A stretch of 33,362 bases of DNA from a virus, in the IMG/VR virus record IMGVR_UViG_3300028025_002797, positions 1 to 33,362 of that record; one strand, written 5' to 3'. The position numbers were made by a program, and so were the translations under genes. Below are positions 1 to 33,362 of this stretch, one piece after another (the first letter of the stretch is position 1; each line of letters begins with the position of its first letter). Under the pieces are notes generated by a model. That model searched no databases and had not been told where the DNA came from. It saw only the letters and a list, made by a program, of their open reading frames with translations.

Positions 1-5
1 CCTAA

Positions 6-23
6 GGGGGGGGGCGGGGGCGG
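6..23. other. G-rich run at the left edge
   Basis: Nine consecutive Gs are followed by C, five Gs, C and two Gs. Such a tract can form a G-quadruplex and often breaks assemblies, so the window edge here may be an assembly or extraction boundary. GC-rich termini are also seen at cos ends of actinobacteriophages, but nothing in this sequence proves a physical end. Confidence 0.5.
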
Positions 24-42
24 ATCAGCGAAGACAAAGCTA

Positions 43-88: not shown

Positions 89-370
89 CTATTGCTTAAC
101 GCTTTTCTTACTCTCTCCGACTATCAGCCCGCCAAATATCAGCGCACTAAAGGCGGTGAGGCCATAGGTTATTTTCTCAACGGTTCGCCACGCTCTGACC
201 CACTCGCTCCCCTGTACATGCTGAGGGGCTTGTGTTGCAGACTTCGGGCTATAGATTGCTTTCCGTTGTTCCGCTGTTAGCTTCAAGGCTTGCTCTATCG
301 CTTTTGGGTCGTCTACTCGTCTAACCTTTTGGGCTGCCAGTATTGCGCGGGTTCTGTTTGCGTTAGCCAT
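89..370 (-). CDS. Small membrane-anchored protein, unknown function
   Basis: This 93-residue protein is the last gene of the left cluster. The N-terminal 60 residues are charged and soluble-looking. Residues about 67-86 are a single hydrophobic segment (GLTAFSALIFGGLIVG) followed by lysines, so a tail-anchored membrane protein is likely. Its ATG overlaps the TAA of the preceding gene (TAATG), implying coupled translation. I do not recognise a family. Confidence 0.7.
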   Translation of the reverse strand: MANANRTRAILAAQKVRRVDDPKAIEQALKLTAEQRKAIYSPKSATQAPQHVQGSEWVRAWRTVEKITYGLTAFSALIFGGLIVGESKKSVKQ

Positions 371-561
371 TACCAGCCACCCATAACGGCTAATGCGCCT
401 TTGGTTCGGTAAGTGTCCATCAGTGCTAAAAATAAGCGCGTTGCCTGTTGCTTGTCTTTGATTGTGTACGCCTGCGAATAAGTAGTGCGCCCGCGCTTCA
501 TTGTCAAGATTAGGCCGTTGTTTGTTTCTCTTATCTCTAATCCTCTAGCTGTTGTTTTCAT
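370..561 (-). CDS. Hypothetical protein, 63 residues
   Basis: A small, basic, probably alpha/beta protein. I chose the ATG at 559-561 because it overlaps the upstream stop as TAATG; a TTG two codons earlier is less likely. It overlaps its downstream neighbour in the same way. The N-terminal half looks like beta strands (LEIRETNNGLILTMKRGR) and the C-terminal half like a helix. No family recognised. Confidence 0.7.
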   Translation of the reverse strand: MKTTARGLEIRETNNGLILTMKRGRTTYSQAYTIKDKQQATRLFLALMDTYRTKGALAVMGGW

Positions 562-962
562 TACCAACCATCCTCAGCGTTGCTTAGTACCCGTTCTATT
601 TTTGCGCGTCTGTCTGCGTATTCGGGCCAGATTGTTTCATCCAAATAGATTGATCCATATACGGCGATTGGCAGATATCTAAACACGCTGATACATTCTT
701 GACGGCTAACACCTGACAGAAAACCCTCGACCTCTTTCCAGTGGCTTTCAAGTTTTTTTAGTTTCTTATCTGTCATATCTATATCGGGCGTTTCGTAATC
801 TGCCCTGTTTCCGCTGTCGCCTGTCGCAACATACGCGGCTAAGCCGTGGCCTATGTGTTTAACGCTCATCTCGTCTCTATCGCCTAGTTTCCATATGTCG
901 GTGAGTATTGTGTTTAGTATGTCAATGTCGGAGAGTCTTAACTGTCTCTTTGTGCTTTCCAT
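561..962 (-). CDS. Hypothetical acidic protein, 133 residues
   Basis: The ATG follows a clear Shine-Dalgarno (GAAGGG) at normal spacing. The protein is acidic and predicted mostly helical, with no membrane segment or signal peptide and no motif I recognise. It sits in the left cluster of nine small genes, where phages commonly carry host-takeover or anti-defence genes; that role is inference only. Confidence 0.7.
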   Translation of the reverse strand: MESTKRQLRLSDIDILNTILTDIWKLGDRDEMSVKHIGHGLAAYVATGDSGNRADYETPDIDMTDKKLKKLESHWKEVEGFLSGVSRQECISVFRYLPIAVYGSIYLDETIWPEYADRRAKIERVLSNAEDGW

Positions 963-987
963 TTTTGTTTTCCCTTCGTTTTTTTTA

Positions 988-1176
988 TTAGCTGTTTGCT
1001 AGTGCTTCTCTGTCTAGTGCTGTCCAAATTATCGCGCCCTTTTCTCGGATAGAGATATAACTAACGGCTTCCCAGTTTTCTAACTCGTCTCTTAGAATTT
1101 CCCAGTGTGTACCCGCGATTTCTAAGCGGGTCCAGAGTCCACTTTCAAAGTTTATTTCTAGCTCATAGTTCGTCAT
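988..1176 (-). CDS. Hypothetical protein, 62 residues
   Basis: A short acidic protein of alternating strands (YELEINFESGLWTRLEIAG) then a helix. A strong SD (AAGGAAGGG) precedes the ATG. Its start overlaps the end of the upstream gene by 14 bases. Function unknown. Confidence 0.65.
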   Translation of the reverse strand: MTNYELEINFESGLWTRLEIAGTHWEILRDELENWEAVSYISIREKGAIIWTALDREALANS

Positions 1177-1405
1177 CTGTTGCCCTTCCTTGCATTTTGT
1201 AGGTCTGCTCTTGTATTCCCTCGTAAACTGGTGTCCATAATTCCCAACGCTCTATCTTGTCCGCGATTGTTGCGAACTGTTTTTTAGTTAGCTCTGGTTC
1301 ATCAAGTGCGAAGTCATGGCGCGTGTAATACTGCCAAATAACTATCTCATCGGGGTCCGTGTATTTTTGCAGGATTTCGATTAGTTCCTTGCTAGTTGTT
1401 GCCAT
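1163..1405 (-). CDS. Hypothetical protein, 80 residues
   Basis: The reading frame is open upstream, but a strong SD (GGAAAGGG) sits just before the ATG at 1403-1405, so I start there (MATTSKELIEILQKY). The protein looks helical and acidic (KELIEILQKYTDPDE, then aromatic residues WQYYTRHDF). No known domain seen. Confidence 0.7.
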   Translation of the reverse strand: MATTSKELIEILQKYTDPDEIVIWQYYTRHDFALDEPELTKKQFATIADKIERWELWTPVYEGIQEQTYKMQGRATDDEL

Positions 1406-1431
1406 TTTGTTTTTCCCTTTCCTTTTTGTTT

Positions 1432-1860
1432 TTATAGTGCGTTTAGCCAGTGTCCCGCAAGTTCCTTGCGCGTTCTCCATCCGCCCTCTGCGGTGTCAAT
1501 CTCAAAACCAAACACCTTTCCAAGTGCAACTGCTACCTCGTCAGATATGTCGGTCCAGTCTTCACTTGTTGCGCTTTCGCTGTATAGCTTCGATGCGTTC
1601 GGATAATTCGGGATATCTTCGTCTTCCGTGTAATCGCCTAGGATGACAACGCGATCACCAACCCAACGGCCCGACAAGTCTGCGAAACTTTCCCAGTCCC
1701 CCCCGCCTCTAGCTGGTGAGGTCATCACTAGCAGATATAGCGCGTCAGATATTGACCCGTTCTCTCCTGTCTGCTCGTATTGTTTCGCACCCAGTCCCAG
1801 ATTGTAGGGGCTCACTGTTTCTTTTTTATCTAAGTTAACTAGCTTGTGATACTGTCCCAT
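1432..1860 (-). CDS. Conserved unknown protein (MGQYHK family)
   Basis: This 142-residue protein starts MGQYHKLVNLDKKE and contains RGGGDW, GRWVGDRVVILGDY and WTDISDEV. From memory these match the layout of an uncharacterised family found in actinobacterial genomes, plasmids and phages (MGQY-KVVNLDK start, central RGGGD, then a W-GDR-V-GDY block). That recollection is not backed by a search. It has a good SD and no membrane segment. Biochemical role unknown. Confidence 0.75.
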   Translation of the reverse strand: MGQYHKLVNLDKKETVSPYNLGLGAKQYEQTGENGSISDALYLLVMTSPARGGGDWESFADLSGRWVGDRVVILGDYTEDEDIPNYPNASKLYSESATSEDWTDISDEVAVALGKVFGFEIDTAEGGWRTRKELAGHWLNAL

Positions 1861-1864
1861 TTTT

Positions 1865-2173
1865 TTATTCCCCTTCGTTTTCTTGTGTTTGTTTTTCTTC
1901 GGTGATTTCTGTAAAAGCCTTTTCGACTAGCGCAAAATAGTAAAGATGTAAGTCCGTTGTCATTAGGCTGTAAATTGTGGTGTCGGGCGTGAACTCAACG
2001 CCGTAATCTCTCCATGCGTCTGTATCTTCCATGGGTAGCGCTTTCCACTCATCGGCAATATCAGAATAATAAACTGGCGTATTGCTTTCCGCGTATTCGT
2101 GCAGGCGTGATTCGGTTAGGTGTTCCCACTCGCTTAGCAGTTCCGCTTTTATTTCTTCGTATGTTGTAAGCAA
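1865..2173 (-). CDS. Hypothetical acidic protein, 102 residues
   Basis: It starts at a TTG (2171-2173) preceded by AAAGGGAAAAA, a normal SD and spacing; no ATG fits better. The protein is strongly acidic and helical, with many tyrosines and tryptophans in the middle and a Glu/Gln-rich tail. No recognised fold. DNA mimicry by an acidic phage protein is conceivable but unsupported. Confidence 0.65.
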   Translation of the reverse strand: MLTTYEEIKAELLSEWEHLTESRLHEYAESNTPVYYSDIADEWKALPMEDTDAWRDYGVEFTPDTTIYSLMTTDLHLYYFALVEKAFTEITEEKQTQENEGE

Positions 2174-2184
2174 TTTTTCCCTTT

Positions 2185-2331
2185 CTAGTTTTTTTCAATT
2201 TGTATCAGAAAAGACAAGACCAGCGAGACGATGAGAAGCAACGCCCCCGCCATGCCCTGCCCGTTGTCCTGCAAGTCCCACGCAACTAGCAAGACGCAAA
2301 ACAAAAACACCATATTTAGAATTAGTCTCAT
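2185..2331 (-). CDS. Very small two-helix membrane protein
   Basis: I start at the ATG at 2329-2331, just after an SD (GGAAGGG), which gives 48 residues. Two hydrophobic stretches (MVFLFCVLLVAW and ALLLIVSLVLSFLI) are separated by a short polar turn (DLQDNGQG), so it is probably a hairpin membrane protein. Function unknown. Confidence 0.65.
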   Translation of the reverse strand: MRLILNMVFLFCVLLVAWDLQDNGQGMAGALLLIVSLVLSFLIQIEKN

Positions 2332-2356
2332 TTTGTTTTCCCTTCCGTGATCTCGA

Positions 2357-2545
2357 CTAAAAACCAACGGTAATGATTTTAAAGTGTTCAGAGAAAAACT
2401 CGGTGGCTTCGGCCTTTGCTTTAGACACGCGCTGTTCTTCCCTTAGTCGGTGCAGGCGGTGTTCTATTTCTAAAATTTCCGCTTCTAGTTCGTTGATTCT
2501 GTCCTGCTCTGTCTCTATTGCCTGAGCTAGTTCTTTGCTGTTCAT
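2357..2545 (-). CDS. Short coiled-coil protein, first gene of the left cluster
   Basis: The ATG at 2543-2545 follows GAAAGGGAACGAAAC, so I start there (62 residues). Residues about 5-45 are a heptad-like coiled coil rich in E, R, L and I. It is the promoter-proximal gene of the leftward cluster below the large non-coding region. Function unknown. Confidence 0.7.
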   Translation of the reverse strand: MNSKELAQAIETEQDRINELEAEILEIEHRLHRLREEQRVSKAKAEATEFFSEHFKIITVGF

Positions 2546-2588
2546 GTTTCGTTCCCTTTCGTTTAGGCCCTGTCTGGGCCATGTGTCC

Positions 2589-2594
2589 ACTATA
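2589..2594 (-). promoter_or_regulatory. Candidate leftward promoter, -10 element
   Basis: In the leftward sense the sequence reads TGG TATAGT GGACAC, an extended -10 box about 45 bases before the first start codon of the left cluster. No good -35 is visible, but the upstream DNA is a long A-tract in this sense, which could act as an UP element. Confidence 0.5.
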
Positions 2595-2607
2595 CCAGAT
2601 TTTTCCC

Positions 2608-2640
2608 TTTTTTTTCTGTTTTTTTCTGTTTTTTTGTGTT
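2608..2640. repeat. Phased T-tracts
   Basis: Runs of seven to eight Ts alternate with CTG, CTG and GTG. The tracts recur about every 10 bases, which should give intrinsic curvature and easy melting. They flank the candidate leftward promoter and could also serve as an unwinding element if the region is an origin. Confidence 0.6.
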
Positions 2641-2764
2641 TTTCGGCGTGTCGTTATAAAACCGTTATTTTAGGCTTTTTGGCCCTGTTTGGCTTCCCTA
2701 TCCTGTCGGGGGCGCTCTGACCTCTTTATATGTTCGCCGTGGCAATTTCTGGGCCGTGGTTCGG

Positions 2765-2862
2765 TGTCGGGCGTGTCGCGGATCTCGGCGGGGCAGTCTG
2801 TCGGGCGTGTCGCTTTTCACTCTCTCGCGGATTCTTCGGGCCGTGCTTGTCGGTAGTGTCGC
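2765..2862. repeat. 15-base element in three direct copies
   Basis: TGTCGGGCGTGTCGC occurs at 2765-2779 and 2799-2813, and TGTCGGTAGTGTCGC at 2848-2862. All three have the same orientation, with starts 34 and 49 bases apart. No convincing gene covers them. A related GCGTGTCG lies at 2645-2652. They look like protein-binding sites; the binder is unknown. Confidence 0.6.
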
Positions 2863-2942
2863 GGTTGGCTTCAATATCTCGCGGGGCGCTTCAGGCGCTC
2901 GCCGTATCCGTGGCAATAGGTCGGTGGCAGACTGTCAGACTG

Positions 2943-2996
2943 TCGAACAAGTGTCCGATCTGCGTCTATCGAACAAATTTACGAAACAAGTGTTCG
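2943..2996. promoter_or_regulatory. SOS-box-like sites
   Basis: TCGAACAAGTGTCCGA (2943-2958) matches the Gram-positive/actinobacterial LexA box TCGAAC-N4-GTTCGA with one mismatch. TCGAACAAAT at 2969-2978 is a half site. CGAAACAAGTGTTCG (2982-2996) is a second box carrying one extra A in its left arm. Host LexA, or a phage repressor of similar specificity, may bind here upstream of the left cluster. Confidence 0.5.
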
Positions 2997-3030
2997 AGTG
3001 GCTTTCTGGCCCTGTCTGGCTGGCTGTCCA

Positions 3031-3156
3031 ACCGAATCCTGACCGAATATTGGAATCCTGACCGAATCTCAGAATTTTTCCAACCGAATCTTGACCGAAT
3101 ATCGAACCGAGTCAGTGCCATTGTCTAACCGAGTCTGACCGAATCTTGACCGAATC
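3031..3156. repeat. Helically phased array of 11-base repeats
   Basis: The core ACCGAAT starts at 3031, 3042, 3061, 3083, 3094, 3138 and 3149, with variants ACCGAGTC at 3106 and 3128. The best consensus is TGACCGAATCT. Steps are 11, 19, 22, 11, 12, 22, 10 and 11 bases, with degenerate copies in two of the long gaps. All copies point the same way. This resembles iterons of a replication origin or an operator array, not a CRISPR. Confidence 0.75.
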
Positions 3157-3200
3157 TTTTGGTTTTTATTTGTCAGCCATGTTGCCTTGGCTTATTGGTG

Positions 3201-3530
3201 TTAGTCGGTAGTAGTAAGAGGCTTGTTGCCTCTACGGGCGTTGCAGGATCTATGGGCTGGGGCTAGTGGGCTGTTGGGGTCGCCTGGAATCAAGTGGTCA
3301 GCTTGGAATGGGTCGTCTATCCTCATGCCTTCGTTGCAGAGGTGGCAGTAAAGGGCTGAGTCTCTGACTTGCTTGGCACGCTTACGGTAGTCGCCAGCAT
3401 ACTGACCTGTTTCTCGTTTTCTTTCAGCTCGCTTGGCTTCTAGCCTTTGTTCCAACATTTTCTGGTGAATGTCACACCTAGAGGCCCCCCCAGTAAGTTT
3501 TCCGCAATCTAGGCAAGGTTTTGCATACAT
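3201..3530 (-). CDS. HNH endonuclease with zinc fingers
   Basis: This 109-residue protein has an N-terminal CLDCG...C-H zinc knuckle, a basic linker, then CHLC...ADHLIP...HRSCNARRGN, a standard HNH nuclease core (two Cys pairs bind zinc; DH and the late HRSCN supply the active site). Proteins of this size are often coded close to phage terminase genes and can aid DNA packaging; here terminase lies at the other end of the window. SD (GAGGGG) is good. Confident as HNH, unsure of role. Confidence 0.85.
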   Translation of the reverse strand: MYAKPCLDCGKLTGGASRCDIHQKMLEQRLEAKRAERKRETGQYAGDYRKRAKQVRDSALYCHLCNEGMRIDDPFQADHLIPGDPNSPLAPAHRSCNARRGNKPLTTTD

Positions 3531-5237: not shown

Positions 5238-6392
5238 CTATAGCTTGTAAACGGTCCCTGTAAAGTGCATTTGGCGCTCTAGCTCAAAGCAAACAATTCC
5301 AGTCACGCTGTCCGTTCCAGACTGAAGCCTGAACCAGTCAGAGCCGTTGTCCATCGTTGAAGCCTGCACCCAGTATCGAGATCCGCCGTTATGAGCCTGA
5401 CCGAGTTCCTCTACCCGAAGGTGGTGGAAGTGTCCGCTGACAAACAAGGTGAAAGCCGAAGTCGGACCCTGACCGAATGTTTGCTTCTGTAGCCAAGCTT
5501 CCATTCCGTTTGGTCTCTTTGCTTGATGACCGTGAGCAAGCGCAACAATGTGGAAGCCATCGTCAAAGACATCAAGTGCCAGCGACTCGTCATAGGGGTC
5601 AGGAATAAGGTAAGTGACATCCATACCTAGCTCAGTAGTCAATCGTCTGAGCTGTTGCAGGATTACTATGCCCCAGTCATCGAGTCCAGGCTTACCGACT
5701 GTCTGACCGTTGAATCTCCACTGACAATGATTGGAAGCAACCGAAGCGTAGGTGACTGGTGCGTACTTGTGCGCCATTTTGACCAAATCGTAAAGTAATG
5801 CGGCACTAAGGTCCACTTGTTGCATTGGAGATATGTCGTTGGATTCAAGCTGAGCAAACTGAGCAGCGTTCTGTACTGACTCAATTACATCGCCAGCATC
5901 CAGAATAATTATGCGCTCATAGCCCCCCCTCTTTAGTTTTTGCTCGATGCGCTCGTAGCTTTCAAAGACTCTGGCAATTAGGTCTTGAGTGTTTCCTCTT
6001 GAGCCTGTCTTGCCTACTTGGAAGTCGGCTGGGACAATGACAAAGGCTTTGCCTTCTTTTGTCTTTTTCACTTCTTGCTTTTTAGTCTTCTTGGCTTGTG
6101 CGTAAAGTGTCGGCAGGTCTAGCTCTAGGTCTGCCTTCATACGAAAGTTGAACCGCCAGCTAACCAGCCAGTCCCCACCCTCGCGCTGTTGCCAGCGTGA
6201 TGTTCTTACAGGACCGTAGATCTCTACTCTCTCAGGGTCAAAGCCTTGGTCTATAAGAAACTGAGTGAAGTCTGGCTGGTCGCCAGTAGTTGGTGGAGTG
6301 GTGGCAAGTCCGTTCGTGCCATCAAATTCCACCGCGGGTCGCCAGTCTTTAGGGGCCGTAACCTTCCGAGCTGGCTCTAAGTTTTCAAGCAT
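5238..6392 (-). CDS. Mre11/SbcD-like metallophosphoesterase
   Basis: The C-terminal two thirds carry the metal-binding motifs of calcineurin-like phosphoesterases in order: VPADFQVGK, ILDAGDVIES, ASNHCQWR, LAHGHQAK and SGHFHHLR. The first 110 residues are a separate domain with a basic linker. Phage members are usually annotated as Mre11-like double-strand-break nucleases. I chose the ATG at 6390-6392, which overlaps the upstream stop by 8 bases. Likely acts in DNA repair or recombination with the exonuclease and annealing protein upstream. Confidence 0.8.
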   Translation of the reverse strand: MLENLEPARKVTAPKDWRPAVEFDGTNGLATTPPTTGDQPDFTQFLIDQGFDPERVEIYGPVRTSRWQQREGGDWLVSWRFNFRMKADLELDLPTLYAQAKKTKKQEVKKTKEGKAFVIVPADFQVGKTGSRGNTQDLIARVFESYERIEQKLKRGGYERIIILDAGDVIESVQNAAQFAQLESNDISPMQQVDLSAALLYDLVKMAHKYAPVTYASVASNHCQWRFNGQTVGKPGLDDWGIVILQQLRRLTTELGMDVTYLIPDPYDESLALDVFDDGFHIVALAHGHQAKRPNGMEAWLQKQTFGQGPTSAFTLFVSGHFHHLRVEELGQAHNGGSRYWVQASTMDNGSDWFRLQSGTDSVTGIVCFELERQMHFTGTVYKL

Positions 6393-6606
6393 TACAGCTA
6401 CATCTTCCAATGCGGTGTTTCCTGATTGGGTGTTCGCTGATAAATATTCCGCGCTTATTCAGCTCAATCGCAAGGGATTGATGTCCCCAGTCAGGATTAT
6501 CTAAAGCACTCTTGAGTGCTTCTTTATCTTTGTCATTCAGCGCGTTCATAACAGCTCTAACTTTGCACGCTGGAATCTTTTTAGGTGGTGTAAGTCCCTC
6601 TAGCAT
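6385..6606 (-). CDS. Helix-turn-helix DNA-binding protein
   Basis: A 73-residue protein. Residues about 20-65 (LNDKDKEALKSAL, then SLAIELNKRGIFISEHPIRKH) read as a helix-turn-helix, and it ends HRIGRCSC, a signature shared by many small actinophage HTH proteins. SD GGGAGC is present. It precedes and overlaps the phosphoesterase. It may be a transcription factor; targets unknown. Confidence 0.7.
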   Translation of the reverse strand: MLEGLTPPKKIPACKVRAVMNALNDKDKEALKSALDNPDWGHQSLAIELNKRGIFISEHPIRKHRIGRCSCNA

Positions 6607-9565: not shown

Positions 9566-9931
9566 CTACTTTAGCAATCCAGCTTGTTGAGCAGCCGTTT
9601 TGCAACACGGGTCGCAAAGCAACAGCCCAATGCCGTGCTGACACTTAGGCATACGAGAACCGAATGTCAGGGGCTTTTCCTTGAATTGCTCAGCTCTCTG
9701 TTCTTCGGACTTCTTACGATCTTGGATTGACTTTGCCTTGCCCAAGATGTGCTTTGGCTCTATGTACTGAATTGCGCTGTCCCGCTGAGCCTCAATGACT
9801 GCCTGTTTAGCCACAGGATAGTCCAAGAAGCCTAGGACCTCGTGCCAAGCCATAATCTTCTCGCCAGAGATTTTGCGCCCGTCTACAAGGCTTAGAAACT
9901 CTATTAGTTCTGCTGTCTCAGTCTTTTGCAT
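9566..9931 (-). CDS. Helicase-loader/replisome-organiser-like protein
   Basis: The N-terminal 70 residues (ELIEFLSLVDGRKISGEKIM, AWHEVLGFLDYPVAKQAV, YIEPKHILGKAK) follow the pattern of an actinophage family coded next to the replication initiator and thought to load or organise the replisome. The C-terminus has a CQHG...CDPCC cluster that likely binds zinc. It overlaps the initiator gene by 14 bases. The helicase-loader role is inferred. Confidence 0.6.
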   Translation of the reverse strand: MQKTETAELIEFLSLVDGRKISGEKIMAWHEVLGFLDYPVAKQAVIEAQRDSAIQYIEPKHILGKAKSIQDRKKSEEQRAEQFKEKPLTFGSRMPKCQHGIGLLLCDPCCKTAAQQAGLLK

Positions 9932-10580
9932 TTTTTAGAAACTCCCTAATTGCTTTTTTGTTTTCGTCTTCTCTTGAGACTCTAGCTTTTGCTTCGGGTC
10001 TTGTTGTTCTTATCCATCGTTGCCAGGTGCGTGTCCAATCTAGCTGCTTGTTGTCTTTTGGCTTGGACTTCCAGTAGTCCACGAAGTTCAGAGTTGCCTT
10101 GTCAATGTCCACCTGCGGGTGCTTCTCAGTTGCCCAAGATCGCATGTCTTCCGTGACCGAAAAGTCATCTGGGATTTGCGAAGCCTTATTGGTGCTTTCT
10201 TTAGAAATAGTGTTCTTAGTAATAGTCTTCTTTGTGTCCTGTTTTCCGTGCGCGGTTTTCACCGTGACGGGGTTTTGGAACGGGTCAGCAGTTGTCCAAA
10301 GATAATCGGCAAATGTGCCGTCTTCGTTGTGAAGCTGGTCCGCAGAGCGCGTTAGGTAGCCAAAGGTTTCTAGTTCCTCTACAGCCGACTTGATTGTTCC
10401 AACGCCAGTCTCATTGATTCGGGCGATAGAGCGCAGGCTTAGATTCCAGCCAGGCTTGTGGCTCATAATCTGAGCAAGCAAACCAATCGCCTTTAGGCTT
10501 AGTCGGCTATCTCTAACCCAGTCGTTAGGTATCTGGGTGTAGTGATCATCAAAGCTGTGGTGTCCACGGATTAGTGGCAT
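9918..10580 (-). CDS. Phage replication initiator (winged helix)
   Basis: This 220-residue protein has an N-terminal winged-helix domain (LSLKAIGLLAQIMSHKPGWN, RSIARINETGVGTIKSAVEE), a Lys/Thr/Ser-rich linker, and a C-terminal domain with FVDYWKSKP and LDWTRTWQRWIRTT, typical of DnaD/DnaT-like phage replication proteins. It would bind the origin and recruit helicase. The iteron-like array at 3031-3156 is a possible target, though that link is inference. SD AGAGGG is present. Confidence 0.8.
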   Translation of the reverse strand: MPLIRGHHSFDDHYTQIPNDWVRDSRLSLKAIGLLAQIMSHKPGWNLSLRSIARINETGVGTIKSAVEELETFGYLTRSADQLHNEDGTFADYLWTTADPFQNPVTVKTAHGKQDTKKTITKNTISKESTNKASQIPDDFSVTEDMRSWATEKHPQVDIDKATLNFVDYWKSKPKDNKQLDWTRTWQRWIRTTRPEAKARVSREDENKKAIREFLKNAKD

Positions 10581-11662: not shown

Positions 11663-12143
11663 TCCTATCTAGCGTGTCTTTTGGTGCGTTTGCAGTTTTG
11701 GCTTCGCTGTATAACAGTCTAAGACCGTCTATGTCATCTCCCATTGATTGAGCCATTACTAGCCAGTCTTTAGCAGGCGCTACTGGTGTCTTGCCTCGTG
11801 CAACCTTTTCCATCTCGGTCCGTGAAGCTCGTTTGTTGCCAGAGTAGTTGGCATTGGCAAGCGCTCGCCCGATTGAGCTGGTCTCACATACCTCAAGGGC
11901 TGATGTAGCTTGAGGACCTTTGCTTGAGTCAATCTCAAACGCCAGTCCAGTTGCTTTAGGCAATCCTTTAGCCTGGTCATCGGCATTAAGGTAGACATAG
12001 CTCTTAGTAACCCAAGTGCCAACTTGTCGGTCCTGAAGCGTGGTGATGTTGTCAGTCACAATACGCCCCTCTGGATTGTCCTTGTACCAGCGTTTGATTC
12101 TTTCTTCTACAGTCTCGTAGTCAGCTAGTGAAAAATTCGGCAA
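11583..12143 (-). CDS. erf: ERF-like single-strand annealing recombinase
   Basis: This 186-residue protein has the conserved plan of phage ERF/Rad52-like annealing proteins: ERIKRWYKDNPEGRIVTD, SYVYLNADD, KATGLAFE, ALEVCETSSIGRALANANY and RASRTEMEKVARG. It starts at a TTG preceded by AAGGG. With the YqaJ exonuclease two genes upstream it forms a two-component recombination system: resection then strand annealing. The C-terminal 40 residues are Ser/Gly/Asn-rich and likely flexible. Confidence 0.8.
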   Translation of the reverse strand: MPNFSLADYETVEERIKRWYKDNPEGRIVTDNITTLQDRQVGTWVTKSYVYLNADDQAKGLPKATGLAFEIDSSKGPQATSALEVCETSSIGRALANANYSGNKRASRTEMEKVARGKTPVAPAKDWLVMAQSMGDDIDGLRLLYSEAKTANAPKDTLDRIAEIANGSSGNANPNSLTDGSSGVSA

Positions 12144-12603
12144 TTTCCCTTACTTCCTTCCATTTTTTTCTTTTTACTATTTGGTGTACCTCGGATGCCG
12201 TAATGCCATACATTTTTGCTAAATCAGTTAGGACAAAACCCCGACCAGACAAAATACGAATCTCAACCACTTCTTCTTTCGTAAGCTTTGCTTGAGAGTG
12301 TTCTTCGCCTTTTTTAGGATTAGTTTTATGTCTTCCTTTGGCAAGCATGTCTTGAACATTTTGTTTACGAGTACCCCACCGAAGATGCTCTGGGTTTAGA
12401 CACGGTGGGTTATCGCATAAGTGCATGACCTCTTGGCCTGTTGCACCAGGACCATAGTGCATTTCTGCACTAAGGCGATGAGTGTATTGCTTCTTACCAT
12501 TTACTGCTTTTTGACCGTAGCCGCCTTTGGATCTTGATTTTGTCCAAACTATGCAACCATTATCAAGAGTTTCAGTGTTTTTTAGTAGCTGTTCGTAATT
12601 CAT
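12121..12603 (-). CDS. HNH homing endonuclease (HNH_3 plus HTH)
   Basis: The N-terminal half has GCIVWTKSRSKGGYGQ, THRLSAEMHYG and the HNH_3 signature VMHLCDNPPCLNPEHLRWGT. The C-terminal half has a helix-turn-helix (LTDLAKMYGITASEVHQI). This is the standard build of free-standing phage homing nucleases. It is wedged between the exonuclease and annealing genes and appears more AT-rich than either, which suggests recent arrival. An in-frame ATG six codons earlier is possible; neither has an SD. Confidence 0.85.
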   Translation of the reverse strand: MNYEQLLKNTETLDNGCIVWTKSRSKGGYGQKAVNGKKQYTHRLSAEMHYGPGATGQEVMHLCDNPPCLNPEHLRWGTRKQNVQDMLAKGRHKTNPKKGEEHSQAKLTKEEVVEIRILSGRGFVLTDLAKMYGITASEVHQIVKRKKWKEVREIAEFFTS

Positions 12604-12639
12604 AAGAAAATGATAACACATAAGTAAAAATGTGCCAGC

Positions 12640-15022: not shown

Positions 15023-15646
15023 ATGATTGAGTATAAGACCTGCACTAAGTGTGGTCAAACCAAGCCTTATGGCGATTACTACAAAGACACAAACACTAAT
15101 GGACTAAGGGCTGCCTGTAAGCCATGCATGAACAAATCAGCAAAAATAAGCAGGGCTAAAAATCCAAGTAAACATAGGCAGACAAATCTTGCTTACTATT
15201 ACGCCAACAAAAATGAGCTAAACGAATACCGCCGATCTAAGTGGCCTGAACTATACAAGTCAAAGATTGAGTATCACAGGGAAAAGGGAAAAAAGTACCG
15301 AGCTGAAAATCCAGACAAAATTGCTGGCATTGCTCGTAGGAAAAGAGCTAGAAAAAAAGCTAATGGTTGGGAAAAATACACTGAGGCTCAAGTTCTAAAT
15401 ATGTATGGAACTAACTGCCACATCTGCGGTGAGGCAATCAATTTAGAAGCGTCTAGAAAGATTGGGACTAAGGGCTGGGAGAAAGCACTGCATATTGATC
15501 ATGTGATACCGATTGCAAAAGGTGGCCCAGATACATTAGCTAATGTCAAGCCTTCTCATGGCTTATGCAACATCCACAAACAAGATAAATTACTTTACCA
15601 AGATGCTAAACAGGGCAGACATCAAGCCTGTGATACCAGCAGCTAA
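15023..15646 (+). CDS. HNH endonuclease on the opposite strand
   Basis: The 207-residue protein has an N-terminal zinc finger (CTKCGQTKPYGDYY, then CKPC), a long Lys/Arg-rich middle, and a C-terminal HNH core (CHICGEAI, HIDHVIPIAKGG, HGLCNIHK). A strong SD (AAGGAG) precedes the ATG. It is antisense to the leftward operon between tail and lysis genes and overlaps the end of its neighbour by 57 bases, as expected for a mobile homing-type insertion. Confidence 0.9.
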   Translation: MIEYKTCTKCGQTKPYGDYYKDTNTNGLRAACKPCMNKSAKISRAKNPSKHRQTNLAYYYANKNELNEYRRSKWPELYKSKIEYHREKGKKYRAENPDKIAGIARRKRARKKANGWEKYTEAQVLNMYGTNCHICGEAINLEASRKIGTKGWEKALHIDHVIPIAKGGPDTLANVKPSHGLCNIHKQDKLLYQDAKQGRHQACDTSS

Positions 15647-31572: not shown

Positions 31573-33108
31573 CTAAATGAAGAATTGCGGAGATAGTTCA
31601 TCTTCTAGTTTAGTGCTGTTTATGCACCTATCTAGGGCGATGACAGCAGCAATCGCCGCGTCTATCTTTCTGGGACTTCCAGCCGACTCTTTTGTAATCC
31701 TTCTACCGTACCTGTCCGATTTCACAACAGCGTTATCTAAGTGCCGTGTAAGCACAGGATTGCCGTCATGCGTGATTGTTTGCTCGGTCACAGCATCGTA
31801 GAAGATTTGACAAGCAGGAACGATACGGGCAGCCGAGAAAGTTGGGAAGCCAACAACTGGGAAACCCATCTCCTCAAGCATCACCATTGTCTTAGTCCAC
31901 CTTGGCGGGTCAAACACTACTTCTCGGACATTTCTGTACTTAGTGCAAAACTGAATGATGACATCCTCGACTTCAAGCGTTGGCACTCGCCAGCTTGCGT
32001 CATCTTCTGGTTGCTTCTCCCAAGTCTGAATCATAAACAAGTGAGGCTTGTCGTCTTCGTGTCTTGGCAACCGAACACCGACTACAGCGGTGGAGTCATT
32101 AGACCAAGAACCGTCAAAGCCAATGATGAACTCGTCATCTTCGGTGTAATCACTAGGAACAGCCAACTGGTCCCATGATCCTGCTGGCAACCAAGCATCC
32201 TTGCTGGAAACCCAGTTATTGATTCGCTTACGCCTAAACTCTGACTCTGGTGTTCTAAGCACGGCAGACTCAAAGTCGCTCTTGGCACAGATGTCGTCAA
32301 AGCCAGGGTTAGCTAACTCCCAAGTCTTCGGGTCAGTGTGGTCGAACTCTTGCGGAGCTTCCCACCAAGCCATGAAGAAAGTTGGGTCGTCTATTTCTCC
32401 TCTTGCAACTTTCTGCCCGTACTGGTAAAGGTTATAAGCAATCGAGTCCTGACCTGAGTTGTCAGACTTCACGCCAGCCGTTGTGATGGCGATTAGTGTG
32501 GCAAGGTTTCCTCGCGCACCCTGGGCGAGCGCCATAACATCAAACAGCTCTCTGTTGGGCTGGGCATGAAGCTCATCGAACACCACCATTGTTGGACTCA
32601 GTCCCTCTTTACTGTAAGCCTCTGCTGAAAGAACACGATAGACCGAACCTGTCTCTGGAACTTCAATAGCGTCTCGGTAGAGCTTGCACATCTCGGACAG
32701 CTCGCTTGCCTCAATCAGCTTCTTGGTATCGGCGAACACCAACCGAGCCTGATCTTTGTCAGCCGCACACGAGTAAACCTCAGCGCCTCGGATAGTTGAG
32801 CCAACAAGACCATAAGCAGCGACAACAGACATTAGCGAACTTTTGCCATTTTTGCGTGGCATCCCGACCAAAGATACTCGGTTCTTCAAGCCTTTGTCAT
32901 CGTGGGCGAACAAGTGACGGAGTAGCTCGGCTTGCCAGTCGCGTAGGTCCATCGGACTTCCTGCCTTGCCAGCAATCGAGTCTTTGGTAATGATGCCGAA
33001 AGCCTCTGCAAAGTCAATGACATCATCGCCTTCTCCTAACTGAATCATCTCGTCTGAGATAGGGGTCAGCCAAGCAGGGGGCCAGCTACTTGCCTTTTTC
33101 AAGCTCAC
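31573..33108 (-). CDS. terL: Terminase large subunit
   Basis: The packaging motor. The ATPase domain has a Walker A-like VGMPRKNGKSS near residue 85 and Walker B MVVFDELHAQP; the nuclease domain begins FIIGFDGSWSNDSTAVVG, with the metal-binding Asp, and has a late Asp in PRKIDAAIAAVIAL. I start at the GTG at 33106-33108, which has GAAGGG six bases upstream (511 residues); an earlier TTG is possible. It overlaps the small subunit gene by 23 bases. Confidence 0.92.
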   Translation of the reverse strand: MSLKKASSWPPAWLTPISDEMIQLGEGDDVIDFAEAFGIITKDSIAGKAGSPMDLRDWQAELLRHLFAHDDKGLKNRVSLVGMPRKNGKSSLMSVVAAYGLVGSTIRGAEVYSCAADKDQARLVFADTKKLIEASELSEMCKLYRDAIEVPETGSVYRVLSAEAYSKEGLSPTMVVFDELHAQPNRELFDVMALAQGARGNLATLIAITTAGVKSDNSGQDSIAYNLYQYGQKVARGEIDDPTFFMAWWEAPQEFDHTDPKTWELANPGFDDICAKSDFESAVLRTPESEFRRKRINNWVSSKDAWLPAGSWDQLAVPSDYTEDDEFIIGFDGSWSNDSTAVVGVRLPRHEDDKPHLFMIQTWEKQPEDDASWRVPTLEVEDVIIQFCTKYRNVREVVFDPPRWTKTMVMLEEMGFPVVGFPTFSAARIVPACQIFYDAVTEQTITHDGNPVLTRHLDNAVVKSDRYGRRITKESAGSPRKIDAAIAAVIALDRCINSTKLEDELSPQFFI

Positions 33109-33362
33109 GCTTAGCCCTTCGAGCAAATAGTTCTTCTAGCTTGCTTTCTCGCTTGACTTCTGCCAAACCGAGTCTGGTACGGGCTTCGGGTGAGAAACCG
33201 AGTTTACCTAAGTTGCTGGCAATTAGGGCTTCTATGTCATTTAGCTGTTTTAGCAAGTGCCAGTCGTATTCCTCGACCAACCGAGACTCAATGACATCAC
33301 GGCGATCTAGTTGTTCGCAGGTCATCTGGAGTAAGTGAACATCTACCGCACCAATCCAAGGC
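33086..33362 (-). CDS. terS: Terminase small subunit, 5' end outside window
   Basis: The frame is open to the right edge, giving 91 residues that begin PWIGAVDVHLLQ; the first ATG inside is at 33323-33325. The pattern GPW-x-x-x-x-D-x-x-L, then CEQLDRRD, a helical stretch and KLGFSPEARTRLGL matches P27-type small terminase subunits, which have another 50-80 residues before this point. So the gene is cut by the window edge. It recognises phage DNA for packaging. Confidence 0.8.
   Translation of the reverse strand, partial: PWIGAVDVHLLQMTCEQLDRRDVIESRLVEEYDWHLLKQLNDIEALIASNLGKLGFSPEARTRLGLAEVKRESKLEELFARRAKRELEKGK

Follow-up and report, generated by a model that had tools for sequence, protein, structure and literature searches.

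The junction between the lytic unit and the right-end operon

The DNA examined here (the window) is the 33,362-nucleotide sequence of IMG/VR virus record IMGVR_UViG_3300028025_002797, which is read as an uncultured actinobacterial phage. A long unit of mostly same-strand genes, extending from terL to an HNH endonuclease gene (3201-33126, minus strand; the lytic unit), is followed by a right-end operon of small, mostly variable ORFs (89-2545, minus strand). The stop codon of the HNH gene (3201-3530, minus strand), the last gene of the lytic unit, is 45 bp before a repeat array (3031-3155, minus strand), which is inside the 655-bp gap (2546-3200) that separates this stop codon from the start of the following minus-strand gene (the ATG at 2545). 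Along the gene strand, the order is HNH stop, array, LexA-like palindromes, GC-rich stretch, A-tract region, right-end operon and genome end. The hypervariable small-ORF operon has no recognised function and looks like a set of early host-takeover or anti-defence genes.

The nine exact copies of ACCGAAT or ACCGAGT listed by the first-pass annotation are all present on the plus strand (at 3031, 3042, 3061, 3083, 3094, 3106, 3128, 3138 and 3149), and the steps between them (11, 19, 22, 11, 12, 22, 10 and 11) were given correctly. Because the neighbouring genes are all on the minus strand, the natural reading is GATTCGGTCAAGATTCGGTCAG..., with nine copies of ATTCGGT/ACTCGGT in an 11-bp unit GATTCGGTYRR along the direction of transcription and with decayed copies between them. 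The chance expectation is 0.10 copies per 126 bp, even at the raised density of this word in the window (P about 2e-15, or about 1e-12 once placement is allowed for). The copies had also been described as being on one face of the helix. The regular steps of about 11 bp hold, and multi-copy arrays prefer the 11-bp step among 31 distinct related arrays, for which near-identical loci were thinned (as also for the co-variation test below) and which still overlap in part. Strict B-DNA phasing is doubtful, as the best common period is 11.0-11.25 and not 10.5; it is no general property of the arrays, since steps of 25/27 (L314, L316) and of 5 (the G007 clade, for example L026, and G013) are found in relatives.

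Beyond the array, three palindromes resemble SOS/LexA boxes, all on the minus strand. The box TCGGACACTTGTTCGA (2943-2958) has one mismatch to TCGAAC-N4-GTTCGA, the box TCGTAAATTTGTTCGA (2969-2984) has two and is exact or near-exact in relatives at +53, and the degenerate box TCGAACACTTGTTTCG (2982-2997) overlaps the second. In window-like clades, the palindromes begin +53 and +79 (or about +89-91) past the last TTCGGT, and many of these, including those of G004, G006 and G007, match TCGAAC-N4-GTTCGA exactly, as compared with one to two mismatches in the window. The LexA consensus of Streptomyces is tCGAAC-N4-GNNCGa (PMC9380542). The fixed offsets of the palindromes at 2943-2997 in relatives suggest DNA-damage control of the right-end operon. 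A -10-like TATAGT (2589-2594, minus strand) ahead of this operon was seen by eye and is absent from the promoter-scan output. Upstream of the right-end promoter, there are also direct repeats CGTTAT (2652-2668; ATAACGR on the minus strand), with similar repeats in G013, G023, L319 and L335, which are possibly the site of another regulator.

The array word is enriched on one strand of the lytic unit

The array word also occurs outside the array, which the first-pass annotation had missed: the two strands of the window together have 31 further matches, of which 26 are on the strand of the array, and altogether 40 matches are found against 5 expected. With the array left out, no hexamer of the genome is more unevenly divided between the strands than TTCGGT (46 versus 7), and the counts of 53 TTCGGT and 7 reverse complements show a single orientation relative to transcription. 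In the lytic unit, TTCGGT is enriched about 5-6 fold on the gene strand. It is the most over-represented coding-strand hexamer in CDS, where it occurs 41 times as compared with 7.7+-2.8 times in synonymous-codon shuffles, none of the 300 shuffles reaching 41. These sites are distributed over frames 0, 1 and 2 as 16, 10 and 15. Codon or dipeptide bias is ruled out as the cause by the synonymous shuffles together with the presence of the word in all three frames. The reverse complement is not enriched in CDS (6 versus 6.8 expected in synonymous shuffles). Escape from Type III restriction by keeping all sites in one direction is rejected because the opposite strand is not depleted either. Among the single-base variants of ATTCGGT, a strand bias is seen when position 1 is C or G, when position 2 is C and when position 5 is A, and in little else. 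Only 5 of the window's 46 dispersed sites are between genes. Gene starts are poor in sites (6 versus 16.7 within the first 45 nt).

The enrichment stops at the array. Between the array and terS/terL, TTCGGT is absent from the coding strand of the window, and 0 copies are found in 26 right-end operons of window-like clades (90 kb). At the 5-6-fold enrichment of the lytic unit, about 19 copies would be expected there. The right-end coding strand is T-poor, and by codon usage 3.4 copies are expected in its CDS, so that active avoidance of the word in this region (0 versus 3.4) is not proven; strong counter-selection, as suggested by 0 forward and 76 reverse copies, was dropped for the same reason. 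In the more distant relatives G013, G018, L319 and L335, there are a few sites past the array. The age of the genes does not explain the motif-free right end, as the enrichment in the lytic unit is equally strong in variable and in conserved genes: lytic-unit genes absent from relatives have 6 sites versus 1.25 expected and conserved genes 35 versus 5.9, and the pooled values are 11 versus 1.9 for variable lytic genes and 139 versus 25.9 for conserved genes.

Two other observations concern the lytic unit. There are two likely mobile HNH/endonuclease VII-like genes (12121-12621 and 15023-15646), the second being on the opposite strand, and the frames of the exonuclease (5238-6410), the HTH protein (6385-6606) and the terminase large subunit (31573-33126) have an N-terminal MLE[GN]L peptide in common.

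Conservation of the array and of the dispersed sites in relatives

Relatives were gathered by means of the HNH protein, giving 44 IMG/VR loci; all relatives except phiPsal1 are metagenomic contigs, whose ORFs were called by a simple longest-ORF rule. Many hits of a pattern scan of viral contigs were coding repeats with a 12-bp step, and these were discarded. L001-L029, whose HNH proteins are 63-95% identical to that of the window, have arrays of 4-9 copies after the HNH stop. In dozens of uncultured relatives, the array is directly 3' of the last stop codon preceding the right-end operon, and the array and its spacing are kept while the flanking DNA diverges. In distant relatives, the array comes after another gene (an MNWYS... 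gene in G017, G018 and G024; small ORFs in G016), and it is always sense-oriented and just ahead of the right-end region. Terminator-like hairpins are found after several arrays (G017, G018, L337 and L344).

The genome-wide enrichment is also found in the full-length or long array carriers G001, G003, G004, G006, G007, G013, G016 and G022, and in array-bearing relatives of window-like clades TTCGGT is first or near first among hexamers. No TTCGGT enrichment is found in the array-less HNH relatives G008, G009, G010 and G011. The nearest cultured relative, Pontimonas phage phiPsal1 (MG835450), has a similar gene plan (TerL 54% and HNH about 50% identical) and differs from the window in having neither the array nor TTCGGT enrichment. 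No cultured match was obtained by megablast of the first 25 kb or by blastn of the array. The sharing of individual sites is 26/38 between the window and G004 (P 7e-5) and 32/40 between G001 and G004 (P 3e-5); it is weaker in other pairs, another pairwise figure being 21/37, and all hexamers are shared at 37-40%. Individual sites turn over, yet they are kept more often than average hexamers, and their conservation is moderate.

In the array-less G008 (L143, L144), a different word, TGCTGA(C), is over-represented and polar (52 versus 14); it possibly belongs to a system of the same kind. As to the genome ends, the left edge of the window (1-25) carries a probable cos site, a CCCCCC...GGGGTGG-like palindrome is seen near the genome end of G001, G011 and phiPsal1, and many related contigs (L058, L059, L060 and L066-L070) start about 487 bp upstream of terL.

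The array word and the genome-wide word change together

The array that follows the HNH stop of G023 is made of AATCTGGTCAA, and the top enriched polar 7-mer of this genome is TTCTGGT, not ATTCGGT (27 forward and 3 reverse; 25 in CDS versus 5.9). In clades with mixed arrays (L324, L329, L340 and L342), TTCGGT, TTTGGT and TCTGGT are all enriched in coding sequence, whereas in strict-ATTCGGT clades essentially only TTCGGT is. As the genome-wide word shifts along with the array word, one and the same factor very probably recognises both the array and the dispersed sites, and its specificity has diverged between phages. This factor may come from the host or be one of the core proteins of the phage.

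A weak candidate for the binder of the word is a 73-residue predicted helix-turn-helix (HTH) protein (6385-6606, minus strand), which is present in almost every array carrier with a locus that extends over its gene. Its AlphaFold model has a mean pLDDT of 84, and helices 42-51 and 58-65 form a probable HTH. The recognition helix begins at residue 58, which follows the word loosely: it is Glu or Asp in most TTCGGT clades, Arg in the mixed clade and Gln in G023; this pattern is broken by L314/L316/L321 (Asp, with TTTGGT) and L325 (Ala, with TTCGGT). Once overall divergence is corrected for, the co-variation between the HTH and the motif falls short of significance (partial Mantel r 0.11, p 0.13), and a Foldseek search with this protein gave no meaningful match. 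No repressor, integrase or partition gene was recognised among the phage proteins scanned.

Interpretation of the array

The first-pass annotation had suggested that the array consists of iterons bound by a replication initiator. The repeats are indeed regularly spaced, direct and in a non-coding region, and the phage does code for an initiator-like protein (9918-10580, minus strand; HTH_36, PHROG replication initiation). The part of the suggestion that stands is that of conserved direct repeats resembling protein-binding sites, kept with their spacing in dozens of relatives; the assignment to the 9918-10580 initiator does not, and no link of this protein to the array was found. The other suggestion of the first-pass annotation, operators bound cooperatively, may still hold. 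The initiator is 92% identical in G004 and 34% identical in G001/G003, all three having the array word in common, and it is undetectable by tblastn in G006/G007, which carry the same word. The location of the array tracks the end of the transcription unit and not the rep gene (6.8 kb away in the window), the polar repeats extend on one strand over about 30 kb instead of being confined to an origin, and the proposed GC-skew check finds no switch at 3.0 kb. The swapped or undetectable initiator, the genome-wide polarity and the unit-end position argue strongly against iterons, which we regard as very improbable. The array is the densest patch of a genome-wide word and looks like a new form of gene control and not like a replication origin.

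The explanation that we tentatively favor is that the phage has transcription-oriented, stoperator-like sites that silence or end the lytic unit, all of them being read by one factor, and that the array is their dense cluster at the end of the unit. We infer a sequence-specific DNA-binding factor that would bind both the array and the dispersed ATTCGGT sites and act on RNA polymerase moving along the unit. In a quiet phage, the dispersed sites would reduce transcription through the lytic genes. Past the last stop codon, the head-to-tail cluster would act as a roadblock to elongation, terminating the unit and shielding the next promoter. The LexA-like boxes are in the region of this next promoter; DNA damage could thus induce the right-end operon, which would be switched on without blocking sites inside it. 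Such sites account for the polarity, the restriction to the lytic unit, the 11-bp clustering at its end and the diversifying word. The explanation is weakened by the mostly intragenic location of the sites, by the lack of a recognisable repressor and by the nearest cultured relative being judged lytic by its authors (PMC6106888). Where arrays are followed by terminator-like hairpins, the roadblock would be redundant.

The main rival places the recognition in RNA. A host or phage RNA-binding protein would read AUUCGGU in lytic mRNAs, most densely in their 3' untranslated end, and alter stability, processing or translation, the right-end transcripts being untagged. This is in agreement with the sites following the sense strand of one transcription unit, with their scarcity at gene starts, with the array being in the 3' UTR (closely followed, in several relatives, by a terminator-like hairpin) and with the spacings of 25/27 and 5, which are not B-DNA-like. 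No consistent RNA fold is found (z +2.3 to -2.8), by which a structured RNA array is rejected, and there is no Rfam match. Moreover, in ATTCGGT clades the change of position 4 from C to T is not kept and that of position 5 from G to A is kept, a pattern that argues against recognition through base pairing, such as pairing with an antisense RNA, and leaves an RNA-binding protein unaffected. An RNA tag of this kind is possible, and on the whole we consider it unlikely. A regulator acting at the array only, as an operator of the right-end promoter, would fit the joint occurrence of the array and the SOS-like boxes upstream of the right-end operon. The dispersed sites would then titrate the regulator weakly or be due to something else, which explains neither their strand bias and 5-6-fold enrichment nor the change of the genome-wide word with the array word; as the array is also about 440 bp from the -10-like site in the window, such a local operator seems decidedly doubtful. 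The enrichment on one strand across about 30 kb could also reflect a polar word read on phage DNA by a host helicase-nuclease or translocase. Of 297 actinobacterial genomes, 0 stand out for GATTCGGTCA, and in 15-40 kb samples of ten of these chromosomes, picked for high extended-word counts or small size, there is no excess of ATTCGGT/TTCGGT, though the host may be in neither set. The enrichment ends with the transcription unit irrespective of gene age, and such systems give an 11-bp array no role, which leaves little probability for this explanation.

Comparison with known systems

Chi and KOPS are polar recombination and segregation signals, and like the word described here they are short, polar and over-represented. 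The word in the window differs in not being enriched in the sampled chromosomes, in being bounded by a transcription unit and in being clustered in an array. The parC-type centromeres, such as that of plasmid R1 (ParR/parC), have 11-bp iterons and thus resemble the array as tandem 11-bp direct repeats near a promoter. Unlike these, the window has no recognised adjacent partition gene, and its word is dispersed genome-wide on one strand.

As far as we know, the cluster A mycobacteriophages are the only phages in which genome-wide silencing sites oriented with transcription have been worked out well. Their stoperators (in L5, Bxb1 and TipsytheTRex, with the L5-type immunity repressor) are likewise many short asymmetric sites in one orientation, with a motif that varies between relatives. 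The sites described here have a 7-bp core as compared with 13 bp, and they are mostly inside genes, whereas stoperators are described mainly from short intergenic spaces. The cognate repressor of cluster A is the L5-type immunity repressor; none was recognised here among the scanned proteins, and transcription blocking is proposed by analogy. The dense array with 11-bp steps at the end of the unit is a feature of the window, not of cluster A.

It is possible, if rather doubtful at this stage, that these phages have an undescribed class of control, in which a clade-specific tag runs in one orientation through one lytic unit, is capped at the 3' end by a tandem array and is read by a factor with a specificity that has diversified among the phages. 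The window also shows that repeats resembling an origin can be the most conspicuous part of a code spread over the whole genome. Cluster A stoperators have one orientation relative to transcription, and their motif differs between related phages together with the repressors (PMC9283540, PMC6550527). If the stoperator-like explanation is correct, the dormancy of phages in these hosts and their immunity to superinfection could be predicted from sequence, as the uncultured actinobacterial phages would have a convergent or distant version of these sites, with a diversifying word and adjoining LexA-like boxes.
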